Position numbers and translations under genes: made by a program. DNA of 20,285 nt from a virus. This document shows, one piece after another, positions 6,643-20,140 of the stretch. Within the stretch, counting starts at the first letter, position 1; every line of letters starts with the position of its first letter. The notes beneath the pieces are model-generated. The model was not told the origin of the DNA. It searched no databases and saw nothing but the letters and a program-made list of their open reading frames with translations. The stretch spans positions 1 to 20,285 of IMG/VR virus record IMGVR_UViG_3300037070_001097; one strand, 5' to 3'.

Positions 6643-7466
6643 CGTCCCTCCAGGGTGAGATGAGTGTAAGTGTCCTCGACTCCGTGCTCTTCGTACCACG
6701 CCACGGTGCGCGCGATGCCCGTAGCCATTGGAGTACCGACGCGGGGCACGCCGTTCATCTCATAGTGCGGTACGTCGTCTACCGGCTTGTCGATGAGGTT
6801 GCAGGCGGGCTCCGCGCCGAGTACGTCTCCGATCATCCCCGGCAAGTCCTGAATCGCCGTCTCCGTGCCGCTGCGCACGTCGACAACTCCCGTCTCAGTG
6901 CCCTGCAGCACTCGCTCTACCAAGTCCTCGATGAACACGAAGTCGCGCGTCACGTCCCGAACCACCGTGCACGTCTCTCCGGCCTTGATTCGCCTGTAGA
7001 ACGTCGGGATAGGCCCGGATAGGTTCCTAGGCCCGTAGACGCTCGCAAGCCGGTACACAGTCAATGGCTGCCCGCTAAGACGTAGGTAGTGCTCGCCCGC
7101 GATCTTCGAGATGGCGTAGCTGGAGATAGGCGGCAGCACCGTCTGGAAGTAGATGATGCGCGCGTTGTGGTGCTTCGCTACGGCGGCTACGTTGATGGCG
7201 CCGGCCACGTTGACGTCGGTATCCCGGTGCCACTTCAGCGGGTCTTTGTAGCTGGCGGCGCAGTGGATGACGAGACGGGGCTTGAAGTCGTTTGCGAGGT
7301 CGTACAGCGTAGAGCGGTCGCAGATGTCTAGCGAAACCGCGGGCCAGTTCGACTCCCGCCCAGTCTCGAAGTTGTCTACGCCCATTACAACGTTTCCGGC
7401 TCCAGTGAACGCTTCGGCTAGATGGCTCCCGATAAATCCCGCCGCACCAGTAAGAAGGATTCTCAT
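6639..7466 (-). CDS. NAD-dependent epimerase/dehydratase (extended SDR)
   Basis: 275-residue nucleotide-sugar-modifying enzyme. The Rossmann motif GAAGFIGSH is at 7-15 and the acidic residue D31 suits NAD. DICD at 47-50 and the catalytic Tyr-Lys pair YAISK at 117-121 are present, followed by GEHYLRL and VYRLASVYGPRN at 137-148, as in UDP-glucose 4-epimerase and dTDP-glucose dehydratase relatives. The C terminus has RDFVFIEDLVERVL at 174-187. The loop before the active-site Tyr (QTVLPPISS) is shorter than usual, so the exact chemistry (epimerase, dehydratase or reductase) is open. ATG 7466 overlaps the previous stop as ATGA. In context it likely makes or interconverts the nucleotide sugar used by the neighbouring transferases. 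Confidence 0.9.
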   Translation of the reverse strand: MRILLTGAAGFIGSHLAEAFTGAGNVVMGVDNFETGRESNWPAVSLDICDRSTLYDLANDFKPRLVIHCAASYKDPLKWHRDTDVNVAGAINVAAVAKHHNARIIYFQTVLPPISSYAISKIAGEHYLRLSGQPLTVYRLASVYGPRNLSGPIPTFYRRIKAGETCTVVRDVTRDFVFIEDLVERVLQGTETGVVDVRSGTETAIQDLPGMIGDVLGAEPACNLIDKPVDDVPHYEMNGVPRVGTPMATGIARTVAWYEEHGVEDTYTHLTLEGR

Positions 7467-8095
7467 AGCCCGTACTGCTCAAAGGTGATATTGCGCACCC
7501 GGAACGTCTCCTGGTAGTAGGGGTCGTCTCGATGAGCTAGCCCGATATGCACGACGCAGGGCCGCTGCACTCGCCCTAGTAGCTTCCCCGCTCTGCGTAC
7601 CTGCGAAGAGAACTTGGCGTCCTCGAACGGCACCTTGCTCCAAGGCTCTTCGGAGTAGCGCAGGCCGGCGTCGTAGGCTTCGCGGCGCAGGATGCAGTTG
7701 CCGCCGACGTTGGGGTGCGGGCCTTCCTCCTCGAGCGTCCGAAGCCCTAGCTGCCATAGCTGCGGGTCTTCGAAGCGCTCGGCTACTTCGTCGCACCAGC
7801 CGGGTAGGTACTCCATGTCGTTGTCCGAGCGATGGAGCAGTGTCGCGTCTTCAGGCGCGAGTTCGAAGCCCTGGTTAGCCGCGGCTCCGGGGTAGCGGTT
7901 CTCAGGGAAGAACACCAGCTCGTCTACGAAACCGTCACTGAAGGCTGCCTCTAGGTAGCGCCGCGTCTTCTCGTCGCTCGCGTTGTCAACGACGACTAGC
8001 CAGAACGGCAGCGTCACCGTTTCGCCGTAGGAATTCAGCGTGCGCTTCAGTAGCTCCAGGCGGTTGTAGGAGACGATGGTGGTGTGGAGCCTCAC
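7463..8095 (-). CDS. Family 2-like glycosyltransferase
   Basis: 210-residue GT-A enzyme. It begins at GTG 8095, overlapping the methyltransferase stop as GTGA; the longer open frame upstream is antisense-like sequence within that gene and is rejected. The nucleotide-binding strand is WLVVVDNASDE at 32-42, the metal motif is RSDNDMEYLPGW at 89-100 (DND), and GGNCILRREAY at 131-141 marks the acceptor region. A late VPFEDAKFSSQVRRAG segment matches the E-D catalytic-base position of GT2 enzymes. It overlaps the epimerase start at its 3' end. It is one of four small GT-A proteins in the cassette; substrates are unknown. Confidence 0.9.
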   Translation of the reverse strand: MRLHTTIVSYNRLELLKRTLNSYGETVTLPFWLVVVDNASDEKTRRYLEAAFSDGFVDELVFFPENRYPGAAANQGFELAPEDATLLHRSDNDMEYLPGWCDEVAERFEDPQLWQLGLRTLEEEGPHPNVGGNCILRREAYDAGLRYSEEPWSKVPFEDAKFSSQVRRAGKLLGRVQRPCVVHIGLAHRDDPYYQETFRVRNITFEQYGL

Positions 8096-8670
8096 AGCAG
8101 CACGACTCCGATGCCACCCCAGTCCGCATTCGGGTTCTCGATGATGTCGAGCGTGTGGTGCGTCTGCCGTATCTCGTTCCAGAGCCGCGCTACCTCTATC
8201 TCGGGGTGGTTCGGAGACGGCGGCAAGATGTCGTGGAAGAGCGCTACGCCGCCCTTGCGCACCATCGGGCCGTAGGTGCGCCAGTCGCTCAAGACTTCGT
8301 TGTAGTAGTGCCCCGCGTCGATGAAGGCCCAGTCGTAGGGAGCGTGGAGCCCGATGTGCTCCGCTATCGCAGGGTCGCGGGAGTCTCCGGCGAAGACGTC
8401 TAGCTTGACGTCGTCGGGAATCCATTGCGGGTAGAGGTCGCGGTTGTCTACTCCTACCGCGTAGCTGTCGAGGGAGACAATGTGCGCTCCCTGCTGCGCG
8501 TTCTGGAGCCAGTGGTAGAGCGTGCCGCCGTGGTAGGTGCCGACTTCTAGAATCTTGCGCGGAGCGAAGCGGCGGTAGAGCTCCAGCACTGTCTCAAACT
8601 CGGACTGCCATTGGAAGATACGCACTGGCGTAGGCGGGCCGTAACCGGGAAGCTGCTGCGCCATGTTCAT
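8092..8670 (-). CDS. SAM-dependent methyltransferase, CmcI/Methyltransf_24-like
   Basis: 192-residue enzyme with motif I ILEVGTYHGGT at 40-50, an acidic SLDSY at 66-70, AGDSRD at 94-99, FIDAGHYY at 116-123 and ALFHDI at 143-148. This spacing, including the aspartate-rich metal-type positions, resembles CmcI-like and Methyltransf_24 proteins, which O-methylate sugars or hydroxylated small molecules and often accompany glycosyltransferases. It belongs to a different subgroup from the second methyltransferase of this cassette. ATG 8670 overlaps the HTH gene stop as ATGA, and its stop overlaps the next glycosyltransferase start as GTGA. A role in capping or decorating the glycan is inferred from context. 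Confidence 0.85.
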   Translation of the reverse strand: MNMAQQLPGYGPPTPVRIFQWQSEFETVLELYRRFAPRKILEVGTYHGGTLYHWLQNAQQGAHIVSLDSYAVGVDNRDLYPQWIPDDVKLDVFAGDSRDPAIAEHIGLHAPYDWAFIDAGHYYNEVLSDWRTYGPMVRKGGVALFHDILPPSPNHPEIEVARLWNEIRQTHHTLDIIENPNADWGGIGVVLL

Positions 8671-8876
8671 GGGACCAAACCCTCTTCAAACCACTTCTGG
8701 CCGTAGAAGGCATAGTCTTGCGCCGTCGCATGGCTAACCCCGAGTAACTCCCCGATCTCTCGGCCGGATGCCCCAGACTCCGAAAGCGCGTAGGCGGCAA
8801 AACAGCGGAGGCGATCAATGCGAATGGGACGTGAGCGCCAGAACGGGTTTACACGCGGTCGTACTGTCGCGTTCAC
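8667..8876 (-). CDS. Small helix-turn-helix protein
   Basis: 69-residue protein starting at GTG 8876, overlapping the GT4 stop as GTGA; its own stop overlaps the methyltransferase ATG as ATGA, so it is a true member of the operon. Residues 36-59 (SGREIGELLGVSHATAQDY) form a good helix-turn-helix of the kind found in sigma region 4 or Trp-repressor/transposase-type DNA-binding proteins. The N terminus is basic (Arg/Pro rich) and there is no room for another domain. Possible roles are a local regulator, or a homing or packaging DNA-binding protein unrelated to the enzymes around it. The fold call is moderate and function is unknown. Confidence 0.65.
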   Translation of the reverse strand: MNATVRPRVNPFWRSRPIRIDRLRCFAAYALSESGASGREIGELLGVSHATAQDYAFYGQKWFEEGLVP

Positions 8877-10090
8877 TGCTTCGCCTCCGCGCGCTCCCGC
8901 GCCCTACGTACCTGCCGCGACTCTTCCTTGCCGTTGCTCAGCGGCGCTACCTTCACCGGCTCCGCGAGCTTGCGCAGTACGGGCTTCCAGAACTTCTCGG
9001 TAACCACGTCGGCGTCATAGCCCTGCGCGAACTTCACTGCGGCTTCGCGTAGCTCGTAGTTGTCGCGGTGCTCGTAGGCGTGCTCAAGGCATTCCACGAT
9101 GCTCTCGATGCGGGGCATGATGCCGAAGGAGCACTGGAGCTCATCCCACCAGCGGTCACCCTGAGCCATCCAGCCGGCGTGCGTCAGCTCTGTCATCGCG
9201 GAATGGTCGCAGGTGATGACGGGCACCCCGCAGGCCTGAGCCTCGAGGATTGGCACTCCGAAGCCTTCGCCCATCGAGGGATTCAGGAGCACGTCGAAGG
9301 AGTTGTAGAGGCCGGCGACGAAGGCGCTGTCCATGATGCCCAGGTGCCAGGCGTTCGCCTGCGGAGTACGGATGCGCTCCTCGGGAATCTCCATGATCTT
9401 GGCCAGCCGCGCGAGGTCCTGGCCCTTGCCGCCGGGGTTCATGCGGCTATGCACGTACAGGTAGGCGTCCGGGTGCTGCTTCAGGAAACGCCCGAACGCA
9501 TCGAAGGCCTGGGGGAAGCTCTTCCTTGCGGCTACCGGATTCCAACCCGCGTTAGCCGCCACCATCCCTACCAGGAACGCATCCTCGGGAATCTCGAGCA
9601 TCTTGCGTACTGTTTCTCGCCAGCCTGGAACCGGCTGGAACACCGACGTCTCTACGCCATGCGGCACGTACAGCGGAGTCAGCCCGAACTTGAGCATCCA
9701 GCTCTCGCCGAAGCGGCTCATAGCTATCGGAGTCACGCGCTCGTGCTGGAGCACCGCTAGAACTTCCGGCGGAATCGGCCAGTGGTCGACGGGAGCCCAT
9801 ATCGCCATGCGCACGTCGGGCCACGCGTCGGGGTGGAGCACCCAGGCGTCGTAGAGCGTGATGACGACGTCGGCGCGGTGGTGCTTTGCGAACGTCTCTA
9901 TCGCCGGCTCGTCCTTCGCGGGGTACACCTCGATGCCGTGCCAGTTCGTCGCGCGGTTGTCGAGGCCGTGGTTCGCTGCTATCGCGACGTCGTGCCCTAG
10001 CTCCTTGAACCGGCGGGTGAACATCTCCGTCTGTTCCCCGTATCCGCTGCCTGTCCACGGCGCGTTGCTAATCCAGAGCACCCTGCTCAT
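8873..10090 (-). CDS. GT4-family glycosyltransferase (GT-B fold)
   Basis: 405-residue enzyme and first gene of the cassette. The N-terminal half opens with VLWISNAPWTGSGYGEQT (4-21), a glycine-rich acceptor-domain loop, and has PHGVETSVF at 143-151. The C-terminal donor domain has LLNPSMGEGFGVPILEAQ at 268-285, with the EX7E pair E275 and E283, then ACGVPVITCDHSAM. This is the standard GT4 signature. The C terminus ends in a basic Arg-rich tail. The real start is ATG 10090, overlapping the tail-terminator-like stop as ATGA; a longer open frame upstream is a shadow of that gene. It transfers an alpha-linked sugar in GT4 families (retaining mechanism); donor and acceptor are unknown. Being first, it is a candidate for the enzyme that primes the protein or the glycan. 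Confidence 0.93.
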   Translation of the reverse strand: MSRVLWISNAPWTGSGYGEQTEMFTRRFKELGHDVAIAANHGLDNRATNWHGIEVYPAKDEPAIETFAKHHRADVVITLYDAWVLHPDAWPDVRMAIWAPVDHWPIPPEVLAVLQHERVTPIAMSRFGESWMLKFGLTPLYVPHGVETSVFQPVPGWRETVRKMLEIPEDAFLVGMVAANAGWNPVAARKSFPQAFDAFGRFLKQHPDAYLYVHSRMNPGGKGQDLARLAKIMEIPEERIRTPQANAWHLGIMDSAFVAGLYNSFDVLLNPSMGEGFGVPILEAQACGVPVITCDHSAMTELTHAGWMAQGDRWWDELQCSFGIMPRIESIVECLEHAYEHRDNYELREAAVKFAQGYDADVVTEKFWKPVLRKLAEPVKVAPLSNGKEESRQVRRARERAEAKQ

Positions 10091-10533
10091 GGGAGAATCT
10101 GAACCCTCCAGATACAGCCGAGCAGGCGGTTGTCGGTAGAACCGGGGTCTTGGAAGTAGCCGAAGGAGCTTGGGCCTTCCACTACCGCGAGGTCGTCCAC
10201 GATGCCGCCTAGCGTCTCGTCGGAGGTAATGGCCTGCAGCACCGATACTGGTTCGGCAGGGTCCATCATCGACAGCAGCAAGTCCTGGCCCGCTTCGTGG
10301 TCGCCGGTATGAACTCGCGCTCTGACGGAAAAGAACAGGGAGTTGTTGCCGGGGCCGTAGCTGTGCGCTTCCTGGAACGGCTCGCCGGGGTAGATGTCGA
10401 TAGACGGAGGCGTGGGGTTCGCCACCAGCCGCCCGTCTACCTGGAGTCCGGGGATGAGCGGGTTCGCGGTACCGCATAGCGTGTCCTGCAACTGCTCCGC
10501 GAGCGCGTCCATGATGGTGGTGAGGGAAGCCAC
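10087..10533 (-). CDS. Tail terminator-like neck protein
   Basis: 148-residue protein starting at GTG 10533, 11 bases after the adaptor stop, with a weak AGGGCGG ribosome site. An N-terminal helix (TTIMDALAEQLQDTL), then VANPTPPSIDIYP at 37-49, NNSLFFSVRARVHTGDHEAGQDLLLSMM in the middle and a C-terminal beta strand (LLGCIWRVQIL) give the alpha/beta pattern of siphovirus tail terminator proteins, which cap the tail tube and join it to the neck. Position after the adaptor supports this. In other siphoviruses the next gene is usually the major tail protein; here the sugar cassette intervenes. A head-closure (stopper) role is the main alternative. Confidence 0.65.
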   Translation of the reverse strand: MASLTTIMDALAEQLQDTLCGTANPLIPGLQVDGRLVANPTPPSIDIYPGEPFQEAHSYGPGNNSLFFSVRARVHTGDHEAGQDLLLSMMDPAEPVSVLQAITSDETLGGIVDDLAVVEGPSSFGYFQDPGSTDNRLLGCIWRVQILP

Positions 10534-10544
10534 GCCGCCCTACT

Positions 10545-11177
10545 CTACGCTATAGGGAAGACGGCGCGCAATCCAGCGAGCTTATGCGCGTGCCTGTCCC
10601 AGGAGTCGCGGGGCGTATGAGTCGCGCCAGCTACTTCCCCGAGCCCGATGATGCCGAAGGGAGACTGCTCCTGCTGCCAGTGCTCTACGGCGCGCTCGAG
10701 GTTCACTTGCCTAGCTAGCGGCGGAGGGTTGGAGTACGGCGTCGTGTACCCGTTGATGTCCGTAGCGCCTACTTCGTCGTCTATCTCCTGCGCCGCTGTC
10801 TTCAGTACGCGCATCAGGGAGTTGTGCCGCGAGGTGGCGTTGACGCGCAGGAGTAGCGCGAGCTCGGCTACCGATGCGTAGACAGGCCGGTCGTCTTCGA
10901 CGTTCTGAATCGGGAACGTCGGTAGCGCGGTAGCTAGAGCAGCATCGAGGAACACGATGCGATACCACCGCTCTGCTGCTGAACCGAGCGCGGTAGTGAA
11001 GTTGCGGTACTGGGGGTTCGCGGGGTCGGCGTCGACGGGGGAGAGGTTCTGCGTCTCCAGCACTGTCCAGGAGACGGGAGCCGCAGCGGTGCCCTCCTCG
11101 ATACGCGCCTGCGTCCAGGGCAGGGAGTCATAGCGCGGGCTTGGTCTGTAATCCTCGAGTGAGACAACTACTGTCAT
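10545..11177 (-). CDS. Head-tail adaptor with N-terminal beta-type extension
   Basis: 210-residue protein. Residues 99-172 (VYASVAELALLLRVN, then SLMRVLKTAAQEIDDEVG and LERAVEHWQQE) follow the helical pattern of HK97 gp6/SPP1 gp15-like adaptors, which dock under the portal. Residues 1-95 look like a separate beta-sandwich: SWTVLETQNLSPVDADP, then a T-rich strand and WYRIVFLDAA at 71-80, as in Fn3-like domains. That extension is not part of the minimal adaptor. ATG 11177 overlaps the stop of the repeat protein as ATGA. The call rests on helix pattern and position next to the terminator-like gene. Confidence 0.7.
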   Translation of the reverse strand: MTVVVSLEDYRPSPRYDSLPWTQARIEEGTAAAPVSWTVLETQNLSPVDADPANPQYRNFTTALGSAAERWYRIVFLDAALATALPTFPIQNVEDDRPVYASVAELALLLRVNATSRHNSLMRVLKTAAQEIDDEVGATDINGYTTPYSNPPPLARQVNLERAVEHWQQEQSPFGIIGLGEVAGATHTPRDSWDRHAHKLAGLRAVFPIA

Positions 11178-12013
11178 TCAGTCACGTCCTCCGGTATCAC
11201 TCCGCCTACGGTGTCCGAGATGTGGCCTTCCTCGCGCCCGTCGATCATGCCGGTGAGCACTCCCGCAATGTGGCCCGTGTATATCGCATCGAGCATCACG
11301 AGCGAAGACGTAATGGAGCCGATGCCGCTGATGAATCCGCGCGGGAAGAGTGCGGCGGTGCGGTTCGCCGTGATGTTCCTACCGCCCGCTATCTGAGCCG
11401 CCGCCATGAGCGTACCCAGCTCCGCGGCCGTAAAGACGTCTGCTCCGCTGAGGCTCGTATCGGGAGTCAGCGCGCCCGTGCGCGGCTTCTCGCGGATACG
11501 TGAGCCAGCCAGGAACGCCGCAGCGACTAGAGCCCCTGTCTCTGCTGCGGTAAAGACGTCCGCTCCTGCCAGTACCCCGGAAGCGATGAGCGAACCCGCC
11601 TTGAGGTACGCGCCTTCCTTCGTCCCGACCCCCGCGAGGAACGCGGAGGCCATGAGCGTGCCCGTCTCCGCTGCGGTGAATACGTCAGCACCGCTGAGGA
11701 ACGCGCTAGAGAGCAGGCTGCCCGTCTCCGCTGCTGTAAAGGCGTCTAGGCCGCTGAGAGACGTATCGGGAGTCAGGCTCCCTAGCTCCGAAGCCGTGAA
11801 GGCGTCGGCGCCGCTGGAGCTGGTATCGGGGGTAAGGCTGCCTAGCTCGCTGGCCTCGAAGACGTCGGCACCTGCGAGCACAGAGGCCGCGAACAGTGAG
11901 CTCGTCTTCTCGTAGGTGATACCCCCCGCGGCTATTGCGGGAGGCGTGACTATCCGTGTCTGGCTAGCCTTCTGCCTCGGTTGCGGACGGAGAACCCAGC
12001 GGGTACGGCTCAC
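11174..12013 (-). CDS. Repeat protein made of ~20-residue tandem units
   Basis: 279-residue protein from GTG 12013 in the virion block. About ten units span residues 28-229, consensus near GADVFTAAETGSLMASAFLS with two alternating endings (TPDTSLS or MASAFLA types). One unit is 22 residues long, and units beginning GVGTKEG, GSRIREK and GGRNITA have diverged. The N terminus (about 27 residues) is basic and the C terminus (230-279) is unique and ends acidic. No signal peptide or enzyme motif is seen. Strict periodicity suggests a solenoid or fibrous structural element, perhaps a head or neck decoration; Ser/Thr-rich repeats could carry sugars. I do not recognise a named family. It overlaps the adaptor start as ATGA. 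Confidence 0.75.
   Translation of the reverse strand: MSRTRWVLRPQPRQKASQTRIVTPPAIAAGGITYEKTSSLFAASVLAGADVFEASELGSLTPDTSSSGADAFTASELGSLTPDTSLSGLDAFTAAETGSLLSSAFLSGADVFTAAETGTLMASAFLAGVGTKEGAYLKAGSLIASGVLAGADVFTAAETGALVAAAFLAGSRIREKPRTGALTPDTSLSGADVFTAAELGTLMAAAQIAGGRNITANRTAALFPRGFISGIGSITSSLVMLDAIYTGHIAGVLTGMIDGREEGHISDTVGGVIPEDVTE
11327..11932 (-). repeat. Degenerate 60-bp tandem repeat array inside the repeat protein gene
   Basis: Ten in-frame units of about 60 bases, each encoding 20 residues (one encodes 22). The best conserved pieces read GACGTCTTTACCGCAGCGGA or close variants. Copies differ mostly at third codon positions, with amino acids kept, suggesting old duplication with selection on the protein. 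Boundaries are approximate because the outer units have decayed. Confidence 0.8.
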
Positions 12014-12024
12014 GCCCTACTCGC

Positions 12025-12459
12025 TTACTCGTCCCATTCGATGCTGAAGTCCAGGTGCTGCCCGGTGCCGGTAGGGCAGATGATGACGATGCCCGCCGTA
12101 GTTGCATTGTCGATGACGAGTTCGCCCACATTCCACGTCCACACTACTCCTGAGCCGACAGCGGCGGCGAGCGATGCCTGCACTATCGCGGCACCTACAG
12201 TGGCATCGGCGGTATGGGTGTTGAACCCCGTCGCAATGACGGTATGGGAGTCGTCCGACATAGGAACTTCGGTAAGCGCTGCGCCTTGTGTACCCGTAGC
12301 AGTCGCTCGAGCGATTCCGACCGTGCAAGCGGTAACGGTGGTGTTGTAGACCTCAATCTTGGTGATACTCGGTCGGACGCCCGCTGTGGCATAGACGGAA
12401 GGACCGCGCACGGTCGTCGGCACCGCGGAGGTTCGTGTTGCTACTGCGCATCTCGGCAT
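12025..12459 (-). CDS. Small Ala/Thr-rich virion-block protein
   Basis: 144-residue protein from ATG 12459 with AGGAG seven bases upstream (AGGAGAAAACA then ATG), one of the clearer ribosome sites. The sequence is beta-strand-like and rich in Ala, Thr and Val: SITKIEVYNTTVTACTVGIA, then VVWTWNVGELVIDNATTAGI and a C terminus ending DFSIEWDE. No signal peptide, enzyme motif or Cys cluster is seen. Size, composition and setting among structural genes suggest a small decoration or fibre-associated protein with a beta-sandwich or jelly-roll, but I do not recognise a family. Confidence 0.75.
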   Translation of the reverse strand: MPRCAVATRTSAVPTTVRGPSVYATAGVRPSITKIEVYNTTVTACTVGIARATATGTQGAALTEVPMSDDSHTVIATGFNTHTADATVGAAIVQASLAAAVGSGVVWTWNVGELVIDNATTAGIVIICPTGTGQHLDFSIEWDE

Positions 12460-12468
12460 TGTTTTCTC

Positions 12469-13215
12469 CTATCTTCGGTTCCGGCGGGCCATCACGAGGA
12501 AGGGAATCTCCGTTACAGCGGCTCCAGCGGTTTCCTTGACGATGCAGGTCAGCACCCACCACGGATCCGACGCAGCCATCGTCTCGAGGTTCGCGTTGAT
12601 GACGTTGCCCGAGGTGACTCCTGCTGCGTGGTTGACGGTGATGGCCGTGTCGTTACCGAGGCCTGCGAGGAACTCCGCCACGCTCTCCGTCCACTCCACC
12701 GACTCTGCGGCTTCGTCCCAGTTGCCGGTTGCGTTGTCATCGCCTAGCACGCAGACGAGCAGGCCCATGTCGTTGTCTGCCGTTGCCGCTGCGGAGGTCG
12801 CGGGTGACTCGATAGAGGCGTCGGTGCCCGAGGCGGTGGCGCTACCGACGAAGGGGTCGGAGCCGGTAGATACGAAGCCGTTGTAGCGAAACATGCGGCC
12901 CGCGTGGTTGTTGGTCGACGTCGTGCAGGTGGTAGCGAGGTCGCCCGTCTCGGTGCCGTCGGCCCAGACGTACCAGACGGAAATGCAGGTAGCGCCGATG
13001 GTCGCCACGGTGCCGATGTCCACGTCTGCCGGAACGCCGGGATGACGCGCCCATGAGCCGCCTGGGTTGTCGAAGCCCATCGCGTGCTCGCCGCCGCACT
13101 TGACGAGCACGAGCAGGTCGCCGGCCGCGACGGAGGCGGGGTACGGAACCGCGAGAGACGTGTTGGCGTTGACTTCCGCTCCCGCGCCGGCCGCTGCGAA
13201 AGCTACTTGCGCCAT
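12469..13215 (-). CDS. Beta-rich virion-block protein
   Basis: 248-residue protein whose ATG at 13215 directly abuts the previous stop (TAGATG). The opening MAQVAFAAAGAGAEVN followed by PASVAAGDLLVLVKCG resembles a common phage protein type in which a jelly-roll or Ig-like domain starts with an a-GD-L-v strand. W-rich strands (CISVWYVWADGTE at about 79-91, DPWWVLTCIVKE near the end) support a beta-sandwich. It is Ala/Thr/Gly rich, with no enzyme motif or signal peptide. Role probably structural or receptor-contacting, an inference from neighbours and composition. Confidence 0.75.
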   Translation of the reverse strand: MAQVAFAAAGAGAEVNANTSLAVPYPASVAAGDLLVLVKCGGEHAMGFDNPGGSWARHPGVPADVDIGTVATIGATCISVWYVWADGTETGDLATTCTTSTNNHAGRMFRYNGFVSTGSDPFVGSATASGTDASIESPATSAAATADNDMGLLVCVLGDDNATGNWDEAAESVEWTESVAEFLAGLGNDTAITVNHAAGVTSGNVINANLETMAASDPWWVLTCIVKETAGAAVTEIPFLVMARRNRR

Positions 13216-14163
13216 CTAGCCCGAGACGTAGTCGAGCATGGACTCGAACGTGCACAGCGGGCTATTCGCCGCAGGGCTCACGTTGCCGCCCTTGTCCCCC
13301 GAAGCCGGTAGGTAGACAGCGCGACCGCTCGAGGGAACGCATACCCGAGAGTTCCTGACGCCCGAGCTCGCATCGAACGGAGTCCGCACCTGGTTCGCGT
13401 GCCGTGGCCCGATGGCGCAGTGGTCGCACAGGAAGTTGACGGGCGCGCCGCCGTTGAAGCTCTGGATGAAGACGTTGCCGCCGCCCGTGCAGCACCAATC
13501 CATCACGAAGTTGCGGAGCGTGATGTCGCGTCCGCCGCCCATCTGGATGCCGTCGAAGTGTCCGCCCGATGGCCCGGTGGCGCGGCAGTAGCCCGACTCG
13601 ACGGTGATGTCGTGCGGTGCGGGTGCGGGTGGGTTCACCTTGATGCAGTCGTTGAAGTCTCCGAAGACTTCCAGCCGCTCGATGTGCCCCGTGCAGCCAG
13701 AGCGCAGATTGATCGCGTCCCCGTTGAAGCTACCCGTGAGGCGGACGAGCTCGAGGTCGACGGCTCCGGTGCATGTCCAGTTCGCGTTGTTGCGGATGAT
13801 CTGCTGCCCCGGTGGGGGCGGAGGTGGCGGTGGGGGAGGCGGTGGAGGTGGCGGCGGTGGCGTCGGGTCAACCCCGTCCGACTCGTGGAGCGGGCCCTTG
13901 AAGAGCTCGGTGATGCCGTAAAGCGCGTTCGGCACCTTCGAGAACGTCACCGAGCTAGCCAGCGGGTCGGCGGTGTTCGAGACGCGCGCCCCGTTGACGT
14001 AGAAGCGGTATCCGTCCGAGTTCGGCTCCGGGGCAGGCGTCCAGCCGAAGGTGATCGTGGCGTCCGTCTCGGATGTCTTGTGCCAGCCGGATACCTCGGC
14101 AGAGGCGGCGGTGACGAGCAGGAGAAAGGCCGAGAGTCCGAGGATAAGGGCTAGGCGCTTCAT
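13216..14163 (-). CDS. Signal-peptide protein with polyproline linker and probable right-handed beta-helix
   Basis: 315-residue protein. Residues 1-22 (MKRLALILGL, then FLLLVTAASA) form a good Sec signal peptide with an ASA cleavage site. Residues 23-95 are Fn3-like (TITFGWTPAPEPNSDGYRFYV). Residues 102-118 are 17 consecutive prolines. Residues 120-315 contain turns such as FNGDAINLRSGCTGHIERLEV and HFDGIQMGGGRDITLRNF, typical of right-handed beta-helix proteins (pectate-lyase-like). About ten cysteines lie in this half, consistent with disulfides outside the cytoplasm. ATG 14163 overlaps the previous stop by one base (TGATG). An exported protein inside a head-tail operon is odd: it may be a cell-surface or polysaccharide-binding protein, or a virion spike keeping a host-derived leader. 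No catalytic residues were assigned. Confidence 0.85.
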   Translation of the reverse strand: MKRLALILGLSAFLLLVTAASAEVSGWHKTSETDATITFGWTPAPEPNSDGYRFYVNGARVSNTADPLASSVTFSKVPNALYGITELFKGPLHESDGVDPTPPPPPPPPPPPPPPPPPGQQIIRNNANWTCTGAVDLELVRLTGSFNGDAINLRSGCTGHIERLEVFGDFNDCIKVNPPAPAPHDITVESGYCRATGPSGGHFDGIQMGGGRDITLRNFVMDWCCTGGGNVFIQSFNGGAPVNFLCDHCAIGPRHANQVRTPFDASSGVRNSRVCVPSSGRAVYLPASGDKGGNVSPAANSPLCTFESMLDYVSG

Positions 14164-14597
14164 CAGTGGAGCAGTGCAATCGTCGGAGTCACCTTGATGA
14201 CGTCGTTAGTGAGGAGAACCACAGCGGTCACGTCATCGAAGTTGGCCTGCCCTGGGAACAGCACCGTCTCCGCGTTGTTCGTGACGTAGAAGCCGTTGAT
14301 GGTGGCTCCCGACGCCCCCACCGTGGGGAACGTGACCTGCGGATATGTGGTCTGCCGCCCTGTGTTGCCGGCGCGCTCCGCTAGAGCTCCCCATGTCGCC
14401 GCCGCGAGTGCCTGGTCGGCGTAGGACGTGTACGTCGTCTCGGTGATGTTCGCAATGGTCTGAGCGTGCGTAATCACCGTCGAAGCGGTCTGGGACGTAA
14501 AGAGCTTCAGCGCCAGTGGTGACGTGTACTTGGCCGTGTTCAGCGGGAACTGACCTAGCCAGAGGTCTAGCCCTTCGTCCGGGCACATCTGAGCCAT
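14163..14597 (-). CDS. Small virion-type protein (phage 'LFxNNxTP'-like)
   Basis: 144-residue protein from ATG 14597, overlapping the preceding stop by one base (TAATG). Residues 28-71 (LALKLFTSQTAS, then ETTYTSYADQAL and TWGALA) and 87-109 (VTFPTVGASGATINGFYVTNN) follow a pattern I know from small hypothetical structural proteins of siphoviruses: a leading L-F strand, a T-Y-T-x-Y turn and a G-x-x-G-F-Y-V strand. No catalytic motif or transmembrane segment is present. Likely a minor virion or decoration protein; the family is remembered by pattern only, so the function stays open. Confidence 0.75.
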   Translation of the reverse strand: MAQMCPDEGLDLWLGQFPLNTAKYTSPLALKLFTSQTASTVITHAQTIANITETTYTSYADQALAAATWGALAERAGNTGRQTTYPQVTFPTVGASGATINGFYVTNNAETVLFPGQANFDDVTAVVLLTNDVIKVTPTIALLH

Positions 14598-14791
14598 TAC
14601 GCCTCCGTTCCTTTGTGGCTGCAGTTAGGGCAGAAGCCCGCGCCGTAGTCCACTCCTGACTTCAGCTCTTCTACCGGCCGGCCGGTGAGCACGTGAACCT
14701 GCTCCTTCTCGATGCCGCCCGAGAAGCGCCCCGGATTGCCGACTGTGCCGAGCGCACAGGCGGGGTTTTCGCATAGGTACTTCTTCGCCAT
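14597..14791 (-). CDS. Small zinc-ribbon-like protein (64 aa)
   Basis: 64-residue protein starting at ATG 14791, one base into the stop of the upstream gene (TGATG); a longer open frame upstream is only the shadow of that gene. Cys7 and Cys12 (CENPAC) and Cys54 and Cys57 (CPNC) form two pairs at the ends of the protein, as in a zinc ribbon. The middle (GIEKEQVHVLTGRPVEELKSG) is unremarkable. No partner is known. The pairing with another Cys-rich small gene just upstream is notable. Confidence 0.7.
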   Translation of the reverse strand: MAKKYLCENPACALGTVGNPGRFSGGIEKEQVHVLTGRPVEELKSGVDYGAGFCPNCSHKGTEA

Positions 14792-15066
14792 CAGAGCACT
14801 CCTTCGATTGGTGCCGATATAGGGCCACCGAGCGCATGAACGTGAGTCCGGCTGCATCCGTGGCAGAGCTGGGGAATGTCGTCGGCGCTTGCGAAGACGT
14901 TCTCGCAGCAGCCGCAAGTCTGAAACTTCGGGCTAGCCAGCAGCACCATCCCGGCTTCTCGAGCGATGCGCACGCAGTCGTCGGGCGTAGCCACCAGGCG
15001 CTTCTCGCGGTCGTGGACGCAGTACACCTTCGCGCTACCGCCGAGTACGAGCTGGATACCGGGCAT
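14791..15066 (-). CDS. Small Cys-rich hypothetical protein (91 aa)
   Basis: 91-residue protein with ATG at 15066, preceded by TAGGAGG and a CCC spacer, a strong site that decides this start over the longer in-frame extension, which would cross the terminator hairpin and the capsid stop. A beta-like N terminus (IQLVLGGSAKVYCVHDRE) is followed by a Cys cluster C51, C53, C54, C68 and C71 (CGCC, CHGC) plus nearby His, suggestive of metal binding. The final part has SAPIEGVL. It is the first gene after the capsid hairpin. Function not recognised. Confidence 0.75.
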   Translation of the reverse strand: MPGIQLVLGGSAKVYCVHDREKRLVATPDDCVRIAREAGMVLLASPKFQTCGCCENVFASADDIPQLCHGCSRTHVHALGGPISAPIEGVL

Positions 15067-15079
15067 GGGCCTCCTAAGC

Positions 15080-15105
15080 AGTAGGGGGGCCGAAGCCCCC
15101 CTACT
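15080..15105 (-). terminator. Strong C(UUCG)G hairpin after the capsid gene
   Basis: Perfect 11-bp stem (AGTAGGGGGGC with GCCCCCCTACT) and a UUCG loop closed by C-G in the minus-strand RNA, beginning 10 bases after the capsid stop. There is no U-tract after it, since GCTTAGGAGG and the next ribosome site follow at once. It may be a partial terminator, an RNA-end stabiliser raising capsid mRNA, or both. Confidence 0.8.
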
Positions 15106-15115
15106 CACTCCGCTA

Positions 15116-16429
15116 CTAGAGATGCGTACCGAGATGGAAGAAGCGGTTGACGTCGAACACAACCGCGTTGAAGGCTCCGATAAGCCCCACCTCGTATCCG
15201 CCGATTCGCGGTTCGACCACCCTCAGATCGACCGGGCTGCCGGCGTTCTCTCCGATGAGGAGAGCTCCGGAGTCCCCGATGATCGCGGTGTCCTGGTCGA
15301 AGCCGTGGGAACCGATGACTCTCAGGCCGAAGAAGTTCCCGGTCATCGAGCCGACGTCCAGGCTCCCAATCGGTGACATCTGCACCACCTGGTCGGTGCC
15401 GAGTGCCGCGAGCTGGTAGAAGCGGTTGGCCGACAGGTACAGGGTGTTCGTCCTGTGCCTTGAAACCGTCGCGGTGTTGATGCCGGAGAGGCCCGCGATA
15501 ACCGCCGCGCGCCACTGACCGAATGACTCCGTACCGGCGGTGCCGAGACGCCCGGAGGCGGTACCGACCGTGCCGATAGCGGAAGTCTCCATCGCCTCGC
15601 AGGCGACGGATTCGGTCTGCCTCGCATATGCCTCGGCCGCGAGGTCGAGGTAGAGCGCGAGCACGTCCGGGTTCGACCAGTTCAGTGCCTGCCAGGAGAT
15701 ATTCACGGCACCGAGGTAGGTGTTCGCCGTCAGCGTTGAGCTCGAGACGGTAGGCGCGACGGTGCCGGCCTCCGTCTTCTCAGCCGACTGCAGGATGACG
15801 CTCGGGCGCGTACCGATGACCGGGTACGTCATCGAGCCCCTGTCCAACGGAACGTCCCGCCCAGAATCCACGACGGGCCTCGAACGGTCGATGATGTCGA
15901 GGATGTCCGTCATGTGCGTCGGGTTGATGAGGCCCGCAACGGTCGTCGAGGTCACGTTCTGCAACGTGCGCTCGAGCCGCTCTTCCGCCTGCATCCTGAT
16001 GGCGTTGGGATCGCCCCCGGCCAGCGGGAGGATCTGGCTGCCGAACTTCTCGTCCGTGATGAGCTTGTCCCGTGCGTACTCCGCGAACGAGCGGTAGACG
16101 CTAGGGCCGTTGGAGCGGGGAGTGGCGTAGCGGCGGATACCGCTCTCGCCGTCGCCTTCTCCGTCGCCTTCGTCCGAGCGCAGCACCCTCGAGACGTCTA
16201 CAGCGGCGTCCTGCCGCTCTACGTCGCTTGCGAGAAGGATGATCTCCTCTTCGTACTCCGCGATCTGCTCGCGGTACTTCGTTGCCTGGGCCCGCTCGCC
16301 CTCGCTCTGAGAACGCTTCTCGTCCTCCGCGAGGTCGATCAAGTCCTGGAGCTTCGATGCGGTCCTGTCGCGCTCGTCTCCGAGACGCTCCATGCGCATC
16401 TTTGTGGCTCCCATGACAGCTTGCGCCAT
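15116..16429 (-). CDS. Major capsid protein (HK97 fold)
   Basis: 437-residue shell subunit. Residues 1-100 form a charged, coiled-coil-like scaffold (delta) domain (DRTASKLQDLIDLAEDEKRS, KYREQIAEYEEEI), expected to be removed by the adjacent protease. A flexible acidic stretch DEGDGEGDGESG lies near 86-97. The shell domain follows, with NVTSTTVAGLINP at 158-170, MTYPVIG at 200-206, TYLGAVNISWQAL at 237-249 and VVFDVNRF at 423-430, typical of the family. ATG 16429 is chosen because GGAGG lies six bases upstream; a GTG one codon earlier is less well spaced. It follows a 107-base gap after the protease gene and ends 10 bases before the UUCG hairpin. It may be a substrate of the glycan cassette, but nothing in the sequence proves it. 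Confidence 0.93.
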   Translation of the reverse strand: MAQAVMGATKMRMERLGDERDRTASKLQDLIDLAEDEKRSQSEGERAQATKYREQIAEYEEEIILLASDVERQDAAVDVSRVLRSDEGDGEGDGESGIRRYATPRSNGPSVYRSFAEYARDKLITDEKFGSQILPLAGGDPNAIRMQAEERLERTLQNVTSTTVAGLINPTHMTDILDIIDRSRPVVDSGRDVPLDRGSMTYPVIGTRPSVILQSAEKTEAGTVAPTVSSSTLTANTYLGAVNISWQALNWSNPDVLALYLDLAAEAYARQTESVACEAMETSAIGTVGTASGRLGTAGTESFGQWRAAVIAGLSGINTATVSRHRTNTLYLSANRFYQLAALGTDQVVQMSPIGSLDVGSMTGNFFGLRVIGSHGFDQDTAIIGDSGALLIGENAGSPVDLRVVEPRIGGYEVGLIGAFNAVVFDVNRFFHLGTHL

Positions 16430-16478
16430 CACGCACCTCCGTTGGGTTGAAGTTGCTCTACCCGGCGGGTGCCGCTTA

Positions 16479-16510
16479 CGAGGAGGTGCCGATATCTCGG
16501 GGTGTCCTCG
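16479..16510 (-). other. Intergenic imperfect hairpin upstream of the capsid gene
   Basis: In the 107-base gap between protease and capsid genes (16430-16536), CGAGGA (16505-16510 side) and TCCTCG pair across two symmetric CACC loops, enclosing CCGA-GATA-TCGG. It lies about 50 bases upstream of the capsid ribosome site. I found no convincing sigma70-like promoter in the gap. Possible leader structure; weak evidence. Confidence 0.35.
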
Positions 16511-16536
16511 GCGGGGTGCGCCTTACTAGGGGGATT

Positions 16537-17418
16537 CTACAATGACTTCGCGACGTTGCGCAAAGAATCTGGCACGTCGAGCTTCGCCACACCGTAGTAG
16601 CGAATGAGCCTACGTGCGGCGTCGCCCTTCTCGGTATGCCCGAGAGTGATGCGCCCGCCCGCTATCTGCTTCGCGGCGCGCTGAATCGCTTCGAGGGAGA
16701 TGGAGCCGTCCGGCTCGAGCACCGGGAGCTTCTCTGCCGCGAGGCAGGAAGCGGCCCACTGCTCGTCCGTGAACCGTTCTCGTGTATCGCTCCAGGGAGC
16801 CTTCGAGACTGTCCGCGAGACGAGAGAGGAGAACCCCAGCCGCTCGAGGCGGGCGTCGACGTCGGAGTTGAGCTCGACTGTGACCGGCTCAAGCTCCTCC
16901 GGCGGTGCCTCGCGCACTGCCAGAACCTGCGCCCCCTCAAACGCAGGCTCACGGCAGAGCGCGATGTTGTCGAGGTGCGCCTTGACGCGCTTCACCACTC
17001 CGTCTTCGCGAATGCTCTTGAGCGGCTTCGCCTCGAGCGAGACGCCGGTGAGCACGCCCTCGTTCACCAGCTCGAGCGCCTTGTCGGCGTCCTGCTGAGA
17101 GAGCATGCGGAAGGAGCCCTCGAAACCCTCGTCGCTATCCCGAAATTCCACTCCGCGCCCGACGACGCCGCCTACACCGGGCTGGTGCTCGAAGTTCATC
17201 AGGACGCGGTTGGCTGCGTTCTGCTGCTTGTCGAAGACTCCCGGCATCCACATCTCTTCGTAGGGGATGCCGGTGCCCCCGCGATGCACGGGGTCGACTA
17301 CGCGCTGTGCGACGTTGTACGGCACCACGCGCAGGTCGAGTGTGCGCCCGTCGCCCGAGGCCTCGAGGTCGACCGCGAACTCGCGGTGGATGACCTGGCC
17401 GTCTAGCTCTTCGCTCAT
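16537..17418 (-). CDS. Prohead protease (HK97/S78-like) with C-terminal extra domain
   Basis: 293-residue capsid maturation protease. Residues 11-165 have the family pattern: REFAVDL, RTLDLRVVPYN at 25-35, YEEMWMPGVFD at 53-63, MNFEHQPGVGG at 74-84 with candidate catalytic His78, and TGVSLEAKP at 124-132 with candidate Ser127. Residues 206-293 are separate: SKAPWS, FTDEQWAASCLAAEKLPVLEPDG and SLEAIQRAAKQI, then ARRLIRYYG and VPDSLRNVA. This resembles the DUF6582-like tail on some actinophage proteases or scaffold proteins, recalled by pattern only. ATG 17418 overlaps the portal stop as ATGA; the longer in-frame extension upstream is portal antisense-like shadow and is rejected. The protease should cut the capsid delta domain. 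Confidence 0.9.
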   Translation of the reverse strand: MSEELDGQVIHREFAVDLEASGDGRTLDLRVVPYNVAQRVVDPVHRGGTGIPYEEMWMPGVFDKQQNAANRVLMNFEHQPGVGGVVGRGVEFRDSDEGFEGSFRMLSQQDADKALELVNEGVLTGVSLEAKPLKSIREDGVVKRVKAHLDNIALCREPAFEGAQVLAVREAPPEELEPVTVELNSDVDARLERLGFSSLVSRTVSKAPWSDTRERFTDEQWAASCLAAEKLPVLEPDGSISLEAIQRAAKQIAGGRITLGHTEKGDAARRLIRYYGVAKLDVPDSLRNVAKSL

Positions 17419-18665
17419 TGAGACACTCCTTGGCTCGGGCGAAGCGCGACTACGCTCGCCGTCTGTTGGGCCGGGGTTGCTCCGGCGGAAGGTGGCGTCG
17501 CGAGGTCCATGATGGATTCCTCGGCTGGCTGCGGCGGGAGCTTGAAGATTGCCACCCGTGCTTCCTCCGCACTGACTAGCCCCTTCTCTACCGCCATCGA
17601 CCACGCTTCCACTAGCTCCTTGAACGTGGGCTGGATAGCGGCTTTCGCGTCGAACTCCACATAGGAGCCGCGCGGGAGCATGTTCGAGCTGAGCGAGCGC
17701 TGGACGAATCCGGCAATCGGACTCAACTCGAAGCGCCACCAGTGCTCCCCGAGCATTGCGGGAGACTGGTAGGTAAGCCCTCCCTCCAGAGGCAGGTTGA
17801 GCATGAACGCAGGAACGCCGAACGCGCTTGCAATCGCTCGAGCGTCGAACTCCTGGGCATCGAGCAGCATCAAGTCGGCCGGCGAGAACGAGAGCTTTTC
17901 GAACTCGATCTCCGGCGGCAGCACGGGCGGAGCTCCGCGTCTCAGTGCAGTGCGCTCCACCCACTGGTTCTGAATCGCCTCCGCCTGCTCCTGCGTCAGC
18001 TTGCGCTTCGACTTCAGTACCGCCTTCGGCATCCCCTGGGCGTTCATCACGTTCCCCAGGTCGGCTGCTGCGGTCAGCCCGAGTACCTGCGCTGCGTAGG
18101 ACTGAAGCGCTGATGTACCTCGAACGCTGCCGGCGGAGGGGTCGCGCGTGATCTGCACTACGCGAGCGGGGTCGAGCGGAGTCTGCTTCGAGCGGTAGGA
18201 ACGCTGCCCCCCCGCTACGCCTACGGTGATATTGGCGGGGTCGAGCACCGTCCAGCCCGCGGGGAAGCCGTCGGCGTAGCTCGATGTCAGGTAGATGAAG
18301 GCGTCCCCGTAGCCGTACATGGAACGGACGATGGCAGCAACGGCGTCACCGATGCCGTTCGGGTACCAGATGGGGTCCGGGTTCGCTACCCAGACGGGTT
18401 CCCTCGTACCGAAGAAGCGCAGCGGCATCGAAGAAATCTGCTGGGAGTTGAGCTGGATACAGCGGTTAGCGGCCCAGACGCGCTCGCCTATGCGCGGGCT
18501 GAAGCCTGCGCCCTGGAGGCCGCTCCAGAAGTCCGTGATGGCGGACTGGAAGACGTCCTCGGTCGTGCCGTCGTCGTCGGAGCGCTGAATCTCGAGCGCG
18601 CGCTTGAGCGTCGCGGGGCTTGTAACTACAACCCTCCCCGAGCCGGCGATCTCTTCATACGTCAA
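17415..18665 (-). CDS. Portal protein (HK97 family)
   Basis: 416-residue subunit of the dodecameric ring at the capsid vertex through which DNA enters. Family hallmarks are VWAANRCIQLNSQQISSMPL at 63-82, GDAFIYLTSSYADG at 120-133, LDPANITVG at 141-149, RGTSALQSYAAQV at 182-194, and IASAFGVPAFMLN at 278-290, followed by QSPAMLGEHWWRFELSPI. The start is TTG 18665, overlapping the terminase stop (TTGA), with GGAGG about ten bases upstream. The C-terminal 40 residues are Pro/Ala/Gln rich and probably disordered. The order terminase-portal-protease-capsid is canonical for HK97-like phages. Confidence 0.93.
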   Translation of the reverse strand: MTYEEIAGSGRVVVTSPATLKRALEIQRSDDDGTTEDVFQSAITDFWSGLQGAGFSPRIGERVWAANRCIQLNSQQISSMPLRFFGTREPVWVANPDPIWYPNGIGDAVAAIVRSMYGYGDAFIYLTSSYADGFPAGWTVLDPANITVGVAGGQRSYRSKQTPLDPARVVQITRDPSAGSVRGTSALQSYAAQVLGLTAAADLGNVMNAQGMPKAVLKSKRKLTQEQAEAIQNQWVERTALRRGAPPVLPPEIEFEKLSFSPADLMLLDAQEFDARAIASAFGVPAFMLNLPLEGGLTYQSPAMLGEHWWRFELSPIAGFVQRSLSSNMLPRGSYVEFDAKAAIQPTFKELVEAWSMAVEKGLVSAEEARVAIFKLPPQPAEESIMDLATPPSAGATPAQQTASVVALRPSQGVSQ

Positions 18666-20140
18666 AAGATTTCAACCTCCCCGGTGGTGTCCGGTTGCCC
18701 CATCGCTGCCCAGAGCGCGAGCGTCGAAGCTACGAGCGGTGAGATGTCTACCGTCGATGACTTGCGGCTCCAGGCCCAGCGGTCTAGTAGGGGACGGGTT
18801 CTCGCTCCGCGGATTGCGTTCCAGAGGTCTAGCGAGCCAACGTGCCGGAGCGTCTTCGCGGATACGACGTCGACCATACGACCGCAAGCCTGAGCGTGAG
18901 AAGCGGAGTCCAGGGTAGTGATATTCAGCCCTCGCTCTAGCAGCGCGGGCACTATGGACTTGGCCGGCCCGAGGTCGTCGCACACGATGGCCTGAGGGCC
19001 GTGCTGCGCTTCGAGCTCCTCGAGCCTATCTGGCACCCAATCAACACCGGGGAGCTTCTCGATAACTTCGATGTGCCAGTCTCCAAACTGGTTCTTCCCC
19101 GCGGCTGCTAGCGCAGTGCGTCGTCCGGGAGAGGTGTCAAAGCCGAAGCACACCGGGTCTTGGAGCTTTGATTCCGCGTCTTCGCACTCGCCCCAGAGCT
19201 CCGCGGATATTGGGGAATCGCTCGAGCCGGCGGGATCGGGGTAGTCACCGACTCCGAGCAGCTCTACCGCGAAGGTTCTGCGAGGGAGCGATTTCAGCTC
19301 CTTGTGCATATGCTCGGGGAAGATACGAATACCCCAGGCGGGTGTTGCCTTGCGCCACTCGTCCGGGTCGTGAAATACCGACTCCGGCACCATCTCGGGA
19401 TCGTCGTAGTCAAGGCTCCACTCGAAGTAGACGAGGTTGGGGTCATCCCCGGCTAGCCCTCGGTGACGGAGCCTCGTAAAGACGAGCCCTTGCTGATGGG
19501 AGTCCTGGTCAACCGCGGAACCCGTGTACCACACCTGCGGGTTCTCCTTCGCGCGCAACGTCGGGAAGAGCGCTGCGAGGGCTTCCTCGGGGAGGATCAT
19601 CGCCTCATCGAGAAAGAGGTGGTCGCAGGCGAATCCGCGCCCGCCGCCCTTCGTCCGGGTACGGAACATCATCTGGCGCCCGTCGACTAGGCGAAACCCC
19701 TCTTGCCCGTGCGAGTAGCTAGGCCGCCGGTTATGTACCTGCTTCAGCAAGTCCGGCGTGCGGTCGATCAAGCCCCAGAGCCGGTCGAAGTGGAGACGGG
19801 AGGTAATCGCCTCATGAGCCGAGTGGATCACTAGCTGTGACTCCCACTTGTACATGGAAGTCAGCTGGACAACCTCGAGGATGCCGCCCTTGCCGTTCTG
19901 TCGCGGTACGTTCAGTCCTACCTCGAGCGCGGCCCACTTGCAGTCGATGACACCGCAGGAGCCTTCGATGACATCGCGCTGCCAGGCGTCGAGCTCGAAC
20001 TTGACGCGCTCCGCCATCTCGAAGACGTCATCGGCGCGCGACTCCGTGAAGATGGGAACAGAGCGCACCCGCGGAGCTACGTGCGTGAGCGTTACCACTC
20101 GCGCGAAGTCTTGTTGCGGCCCGACTTGCCTTGGTTGCAC
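18662..20140 (-). CDS. terL: Terminase large subunit
   Basis: 492-residue packaging motor. The ATPase domain has Walker A VPRQNGKG at 78-85, Walker B LFLDEA at 175-180 and WYTGSAVDQDS at 204-214 (coupling region). The nuclease (RNase H-like) domain shows FGFDTSPGRRTALAA at 332-346, AIVCDDLGPAK at 384-394 and VDISPLVASTLALWA at 464-478, giving candidate acidic metal ligands D335, D388/D389 and D465. The RQNGKG Walker A and the general layout are like actinophage TerL proteins. GTG 20140 is preceded by GGAG eight bases upstream but lies inside the HNH gene (49-base overlap); a later GTG at 20098 is a possible alternative. It couples to portal translation through TTGA. Confidence 0.95.
   Translation of the reverse strand: MQPRQVGPQQDFARVVTLTHVAPRVRSVPIFTESRADDVFEMAERVKFELDAWQRDVIEGSCGVIDCKWAALEVGLNVPRQNGKGGILEVVQLTSMYKWESQLVIHSAHEAITSRLHFDRLWGLIDRTPDLLKQVHNRRPSYSHGQEGFRLVDGRQMMFRTRTKGGGRGFACDHLFLDEAMILPEEALAALFPTLRAKENPQVWYTGSAVDQDSHQQGLVFTRLRHRGLAGDDPNLVYFEWSLDYDDPEMVPESVFHDPDEWRKATPAWGIRIFPEHMHKELKSLPRRTFAVELLGVGDYPDPAGSSDSPISAELWGECEDAESKLQDPVCFGFDTSPGRRTALAAAGKNQFGDWHIEVIEKLPGVDWVPDRLEELEAQHGPQAIVCDDLGPAKSIVPALLERGLNITTLDSASHAQACGRMVDVVSAKTLRHVGSLDLWNAIRGARTRPLLDRWAWSRKSSTVDISPLVASTLALWAAMGQPDTTGEVEIF

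Follow-up and report, generated by a model that had tools for sequence, protein, structure and literature searches.

An optional gene for a predicted Sec-exported modular protein in the late operon of a soil-type virus

Introduction

Why should a gene packed between the structural genes of a virus encode a protein that begins like one destined for secretion? We have pursued this question by following up an initial annotation of a 315-aa ORF in a 20,285-base record, classed as a virus record, the whole of which is referred to here as the window. Related loci are designated by L numbers, and two conserved genes that served as anchors on either side of the ORF are designated A5 and A6.

Results

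Virus, host and late operon

The recognised structural genes of the window lie on the minus strand in the order terminase, portal, protease, capsid, small genes and tail terminator (Pfam, PHROGs; Table 1), and the families matched around the 315-aa ORF bear out the head-tail operon context claimed in the initial annotation. A5 is probably a structural protein. Most of the terminase relatives (1699 records) are actinobacteriophages, comprising Mycobacterium, Gordonia, Arthrobacter, Propionibacterium, Rhodococcus and similar phages, and portal relatives (317 records) are in the main Microbacterium and Mycobacterium phages. These affinities suggest an actinobacterial, one-membrane host, from which an exported protein would pass straight to the outside. 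One A5 relative resides in a contig binned as Acidobacteria (the L017 MAG), which argues against regarding an actinobacterial host as settled. A soil origin is indicated by the company of related contigs and by the relatives rather than by the window's own record, and 'soil-type' is used here in that sense.

Table 1. Features of the window in and around the 315-aa ORF
Feature	Position	Strand	Evidence
Terminase large subunit	18662..20140	-	phrog_9 E 6.1e-61; relatives mostly actinobacteriophages
Portal protein	17415..18665	-	PF04860 E 8.6e-40
Prohead protease region, start not settled	16537..17400	-	PF04586 E 0.00039, at cut-off
Major capsid protein	15116..16432	-	phrog_2263 E 4.1e-29
Anchor A5, 144 aa, conserved, upstream neighbour of 315-aa ORF	14163..14597	-	10 viral loci and 1 MAG contig, 79-95% identity
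Predicted exported modular protein, 315 aa, ATG start	13216..14163	-	ORF list; L002 relative 71-82% identical by domain
Putative Sec-type signal peptide (residues 1-22; cleavage predicted after ASA)	14098..14163	-	Sequence, home-made rule and shuffles, start-codon scan
Fn3-like segment, about residues 23-100	13864..14097	-	71% identical in L002; weak Foldseek list; no Pfam match
17-proline linker, residues 102-118	13810..13860	-	Sequence
Cys-rich probable right-handed beta-solenoid, residues 119-315	13219..13809	-	82% identical in L002; AF2, VIA-align
248-aa downstream neighbour, no confident family	12469..13215	-	Pfam, PHROGs, jackhmmer
Anchor A6, conserved 144-aa downstream protein	12025..12459	-	39 viral loci
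Protein of ~20-aa repeats	11174..12013	-	Sequence; 60-nt DNA repeat
Head-tail connector, by position only (adjoins tail terminator)	10545..11177	-	No PHROG match
Tail terminator	10087..10533	-	phrog_17840 E 4.1e-13

Two other features of the region were observed. A cassette encoding glycosyltransferases, two methyltransferases, an Asn-synthase-like protein and a sugar epimerase lies between the tail terminator and tail genes (3397-10090, minus strand), and glycosyltransferase-like and epimerase-like ORFs are placed before A5 instead in L002; virion proteins or surface glycans could be the targets of its modifying activity. The repeat protein consists of GSLxxDTxLSGADVFTA-type units and contains no cysteines. 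Similar repeat proteins are detected in L003, L008, L010, L011, L014 and L017, following the anchors in several phages and fused to a LamG-type domain in L011.

Operon position and leader

The start of the 315-aa ORF overlaps the A5 stop by 1 nt and the 248-aa gene begins directly after the stop of the ORF, a gapless packing with both neighbours which implies that the ORF is most simply expressed within the late operon. A scan of both strands of 10400-17500, which recognises promoters of the sigma-70 type only, detected none against 0.7 expected in shuffles, and the single terminator-like site in the same region is on the other strand. The gene thus lacks the promoter and terminator of its own that characterise a moron, a separately expressed unit within a prophage, as far as a sigma-70-type scan reports.

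In the predicted leader (MKRLALILGLSAFLLLVTAASA, followed after the cut by EVSG) a charged start is followed by a hydrophobic core, and ASA, a small-x-small cut site, directly precedes residue 23, in agreement with the Sec signal and ASA cleavage initially proposed; when the first 45 residues were shuffled 5000 times, 18 of the shuffled versions did no worse under our home-made rule. No start codon occurs between the ATG and codon 72, and consequently skipping the leader would cost most of the Fn3 segment. Reading of the sequence revealed neither a lipobox nor a sorting motif, and the C-terminus has no membrane segment; on a one-membrane host, the protein is therefore less likely to be displayed stably at the surface. 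The predicted export of the 315-aa protein is well supported by its sequence. The suggestion that the protein is exported before, or instead of, assembly has likewise gained from the start-codon scan, as well as from the leader form and the 10 of 10 cysteines of the predicted exported part that are kept in the L002 relative.

Comparison of the window and L002 genes indicated that the leader changes fastest (pN 0.42, pN/pS 0.69 over 21 codons), with pN/pS values of 0.43 for the Fn3-like segment, 0.26 for the solenoid and 0.055 for A5. By these substitution estimates the leader is the fastest-changing part yet leader-like in form, and the solenoid is under constraint. Signal peptides typically behave in this manner, the sequence changing and the form being retained.

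Fn3-like segment, proline linker and solenoid

The domains initially proposed were examined by structural modelling. The full-protein AF2 model is poor (mean pLDDT 51.4), and Fn3 domains head its Foldseek list with a best E of 0.26, the Fn3 of Bacillus circulans chitinase A1 being among the leaders without significance; the segment has no Pfam match and is here called Fn3-like. The 17 straight prolines were counted exactly as described. They are encoded by mixed CCA, CCG, CCT and CCC codons and hence did not arise by trinucleotide slip, and among 535 non-redundant ORFs from the window and related loci, proline runs of at least 6 are present only in the 315-aa ORF (17) and in its L002 relative (8).

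The C-terminal part is Cys-rich as claimed, since all 10 cysteines of the protein occur after residue 130. Cysteine accounts for 10 of the 197 solenoid residues compared with 0.23% of the capsid and 0.24% of the portal protein, and is also found in leaderless genes of the operon, at 1.4% in terminase, 2.0% in the 248-aa neighbour and 2.1% in A6. An AF2 model of residues 119-315 had a mean pLDDT of 58.5, the only confident part being the first ~60 residues (75-92 in blocks of ten). In structural alignment the best counterparts of the solenoid model were right-handed solenoids, for the most part polysaccharide lyases, at best Z of 8.4 and 8.3, values which VIA-align ranks as borderline, and Foldseek with the solenoid model found nothing significant among either PDB or viral models (viral: none with E < 0.04). 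The beta-helix of the initial annotation is retained here as a probable right-handed beta-solenoid that matches no Pfam family and that may or may not be a lyase.

A relative with an inserted GH16 domain

Relatives of the 315-aa protein are scarce. A search of viral contigs detected two, one cut at its start (L003) and one of full length in a 62-kb contig (L002), and four further query choices returned only these contigs again. The window protein matched no Pfam, PHROG or NCBIfam family and no lysin family, and had no relative among PDB sequences, in 50,697 phage records searched by tblastn, or in genomes from the phylum to which the L017 MAG belongs (0 of 247, a figure that carries no weight without a positive control). 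The solenoid had no relatives among 42 stretches of genome contigs, and in the records behind L017, L002, L010 and L011 only L002's own copy was found.

The L002 protein has the same leader layout and retains 10 of 10 solenoid cysteines, with the Fn3-like segment and solenoid conserved to the extent given in Table 1. Between these two parts it contains a GH16 domain (PF00722 E 3.5e-15; PDB GH16 chains down to E 7.1e-16), flanked on each side by a poly-Pro/Thr tract where the window protein has its single 17-proline run. Within this domain ELDVME fits the GH16 catalytic signature, ExDxxE. No PF00722 match is present in the window protein (0 Pfam families). The simplest account of the difference would be exchange at the poly-Pro tracts, with the enzyme lost or gained. 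A link to capsule or other polysaccharide, as initially suggested, thus receives indirect support from the L002 GH16 domain and weak support from the solenoid fold.

A second GH16 protein is encoded downstream in the same L002 operon (9739-11103; PF00722 E 8.8e-17) and has no leader; the two L002 GH16 domains are 34% identical to each other. GH16-like 'minor tail proteins' of Curtobacterium phages are also leaderless. This suggests that virion-borne GH16 needs no leader and that the leader on the other L002 copy is a distinct choice. A short ORF with a leader-like N-terminus was also noted near one end of the L002 contig (L063 1046-1534).

Presence of the gene across A5 loci

Ten viral loci, together with the MAG contig L017, were found to contain A5, and the L002 contig is the only one of the ten shown to carry a gene of the 315-aa type. 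None of six further A5 loci readable downstream (L008-L011, L013, L014) has such a gene; L012, L015 and L016 end within A5 and are hence uninformative downstream. Other leaderless ORFs adjoin A5 in L008, L010, L011, L013 and L014, and in L017 too, and in L009 A5 is followed by an HNH gene and then by an unrelated leader-bearing ORF of 238 aa. The order in L010 is A5, one 237-aa gene and A6, with no 315-aa-type gene, and in L046 a remote A5 homologue lies ~0.2 kb before A6. Judged from the loci compared, the 315-aa gene is optional at its place. The 248-aa neighbour was considered as one family across phages and rejected, as jackhmmer with the window copy found no relatives among the compared ORFs, the L010 and L029 copies matching mutually; the 'empty site' in L010 is accordingly deduced from gene order, homology of the neighbour playing no part.

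A strict, home-made leader rule selected 7 of the 535 non-redundant ORFs, those of the window, L002, L009, L026, L033, L053 and L045, of which the L026 and L053 ORFs begin ~13 and ~5 bases after A6, respectively, and that of L045 is far away. Leader-bearing ORFs comprise 6 of 150 within 1 kb of an anchor and 1 of 299 elsewhere (one-sided Fisher p 0.0066; 0.017 with window and L002 merged; 0.043 with both dropped), the other 86 of the 535 being anchors themselves or from sources without a listed anchor, in a count for which the threshold was set after a first look (a loose rule gave 12 of 535), the loci were fetched around anchors and the ORF set includes spurious ORFs. Apart from the window and L002, the near-anchor ORFs are the four of L009, L026, L033 and L053, which are unrelated. 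Enrichment of leader-bearing ORFs near the anchors, and with it a recurrent slot, is thus suggestive. A 161-aa gene preceding the L033 leader-bearing ORF was considered as an A5 homologue and rejected by profile.

The L053 ORF (5446-6831, 461 aa), directly after A6, has an RR-containing leader-like start; it has no relative in Pfam, NCBIfam or phage records, its sole PDB match having E 0.71. The L009 leader ORF has no relatives in Pfam, PDB or phage records. Pfam matches were sought in 100 neighbouring proteins, of which 91 were picked from 216 by size and proximity and 9 came from other loci. They comprised 2 GH16, 3 LamG-type, 3 BppU_N and 1 GHL15 and several capsid, portal or glycosyltransferase matches, most of the proteins having no family; with 2 GH16, 3 LamG-type and 1 GHL15 among 100, recognisable glycan families do not dominate the neighbourhood. 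In the phage region of the Acidobacteria MAG contig (L017 5294-11070), several similar small ORFs with AGFFDGEGC or AGLFDGEGC near the start lie between structural genes; from this motif we presume them to be homing endonucleases.

Discussion

The best reading of the architecture is that it resembles a secreted bacterial carbohydrate-active enzyme, consisting of a leader, an Fn3-like spacer, one or more poly-proline hinges and exchangeable functional domains. We give about an even chance to the proposal, drawn from sequence comparison, that the gene is optional cargo of the late operon, encoding a Sec-exported modular protein that binds or cleaves glycan outside the cell. The protein would be made late, together with the virion proteins, and exported by Sec with the leader cut after residue 22, its cysteines pairing outside the reducing cytoplasm. 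The Fn3-like part and the stiff poly-proline arm would act as spacers. In the window form the solenoid may bind or cleave a glycan of the wall, capsule or biofilm matrix, and in the L002 form the GH16 domain would cut while the solenoid probably binds; either action would let progeny spread more easily. Of this scheme, computation has shown the anatomy of the leader, the modular build, the position in the operon and that the gene is optional, whereas secretion itself, pairing of the cysteines, the glycan acted on and the gain for the phage are inferred. This proposal is favoured because the leader cannot be skipped, its form is kept, 10 of 10 cysteines are conserved, L002 carries GH16 in this protein and a leaderless GH16 sister besides, and the gene is optional. 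Against it stand a leader call made by a home-made rule, a single full-length relative, and a window form which has no GH16 and a solenoid with no detectable family. Poly-proline and Fn3 parts, moreover, occur in virion proteins too, cysteines are present in some leaderless genes of the operon, and few of the scanned neighbours belong to a glycan family.

Location among structural genes, with the 1-nt overlap upstream and direct join downstream, would suit a virion fibre or spike whose export allows disulfide-dependent folding and which is added to the particle once the cell has lysed, a late and extracellular step of virion maturation. A Cys-rich solenoid and the annotation of the Curtobacterium phage GH16 proteins as tail parts are in keeping with such a route. 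However, the gene is optional here, no attachment domain is recognised, and the leaderless GH16 sister in L002 suggests a virion route that dispenses with the leader; we consider this explanation unlikely. The same location speaks for an ordinary spike whose leader is left over or uncleaved, the hydrophobic start being roleless or a membrane anchor. This idea, which takes up the leftover leader of the initial annotation, has been weakened by the optional presence of the gene and by the leader itself, which keeps its form despite divergence and offers no alternative start, and appears very improbable. The protein is probably neither a cytoplasm-assembled spike nor the bearer of a leftover leader.

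If the product is secreted, it might serve the living host rather than the progeny. As a lysogenic-conversion or nutrient gene, it would encode a secreted carbohydrate-active protein with which the host feeds on soil polysaccharide, in line with the L002 domain layout, which is that of secreted bacterial enzymes, and with the published functional soil viral chitosanase (PMC9485262). The tight late-operon packing and the lack of a promoter-like site on either strand of 10400-17500 argue otherwise and render this function rather unlikely. An exported adhesin held on the infected cell, masking receptors or blocking superinfection, would account for export and for a solenoid that could bind surface glycans, and has a precedent in lambda Lom, which is exported and whose gene lies among tail genes (PMC12309495). 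Yet the sequence offers neither a lipobox nor a sorting motif nor a second membrane segment, and late co-expression would be late for exclusion, so that such a role seems quite improbable.

The proposal of secreted, glycan-acting cargo can be extended, more tentatively, to a recurrent slot beside particular structural genes at which unrelated Sec-exported proteins are swapped, providing a secreted toolset made in step with virions. GH16 would then exist in two formats in one phage, one virion-type and leaderless, the other secreted with a leader, and poly-proline coding tracts would be the joints of domain exchange. We regard this extension as possible but doubtful.

Phage glycan enzymes are usually regarded as particle parts or metabolic extras. 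If our preferred explanation is true, secretion of a matrix-acting tool by the infected cell would coincide with the production of particles. The beta-helix depolymerase spikes of phages are assembled from leaderless cytoplasmic chains; the window protein probably shares with them a right-handed beta-solenoid and a glycan context, and differs in its leader, 10 conserved cysteines and Fn3-polyPro front. The Curtobacterium phages Daddyjeff and Yotsuba resemble it in having a GH16-like domain in a gene annotated as structural, but their 'minor tail protein' has no leader and no Fn3-polyPro-solenoid layout and is annotated as a virion part.

Auxiliary genes of soil viruses whose products bind or degrade polysaccharide have been catalogued (PMC6172770), and V-Csn is a functional soil viral GH75 chitosanase, described in a main text that uses neither 'signal peptide' nor 'secreted' (PMC9485262). 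V-Csn and the L002 form, with its GH16, are alike in that a soil-type virus encodes a domain for glycan degradation; the enzyme family is different, and here the gene belongs to a structural operon and has a leader and poly-Pro hinges, the window form being without an enzyme domain. The window-type layout is not described in the available portions of PMC12309495, PMC9485262, PMC6172770 and PMC6116005, and the combination was not found in the open-access literature, a scope largely outside subscription journals and preprints. Lys44 of phage fOg44 is a Sec-exported signal-peptide endolysin (PMC6116005) and, as predicted for the window protein, is a phage protein exported by Sec during infection; Lys44 cuts peptidoglycan for lysis, whereas the window protein matches no lysin family. 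Lambda Lom, coded between the tail spike and tail fibre genes (PMC12309495), likewise has a signal peptide and is embedded among tail or structural genes. Lom, however, is an outer-membrane beta-barrel, in contrast to the window protein, which would be a soluble Fn3-polyPro-solenoid protein encoded between capsid and connector genes.
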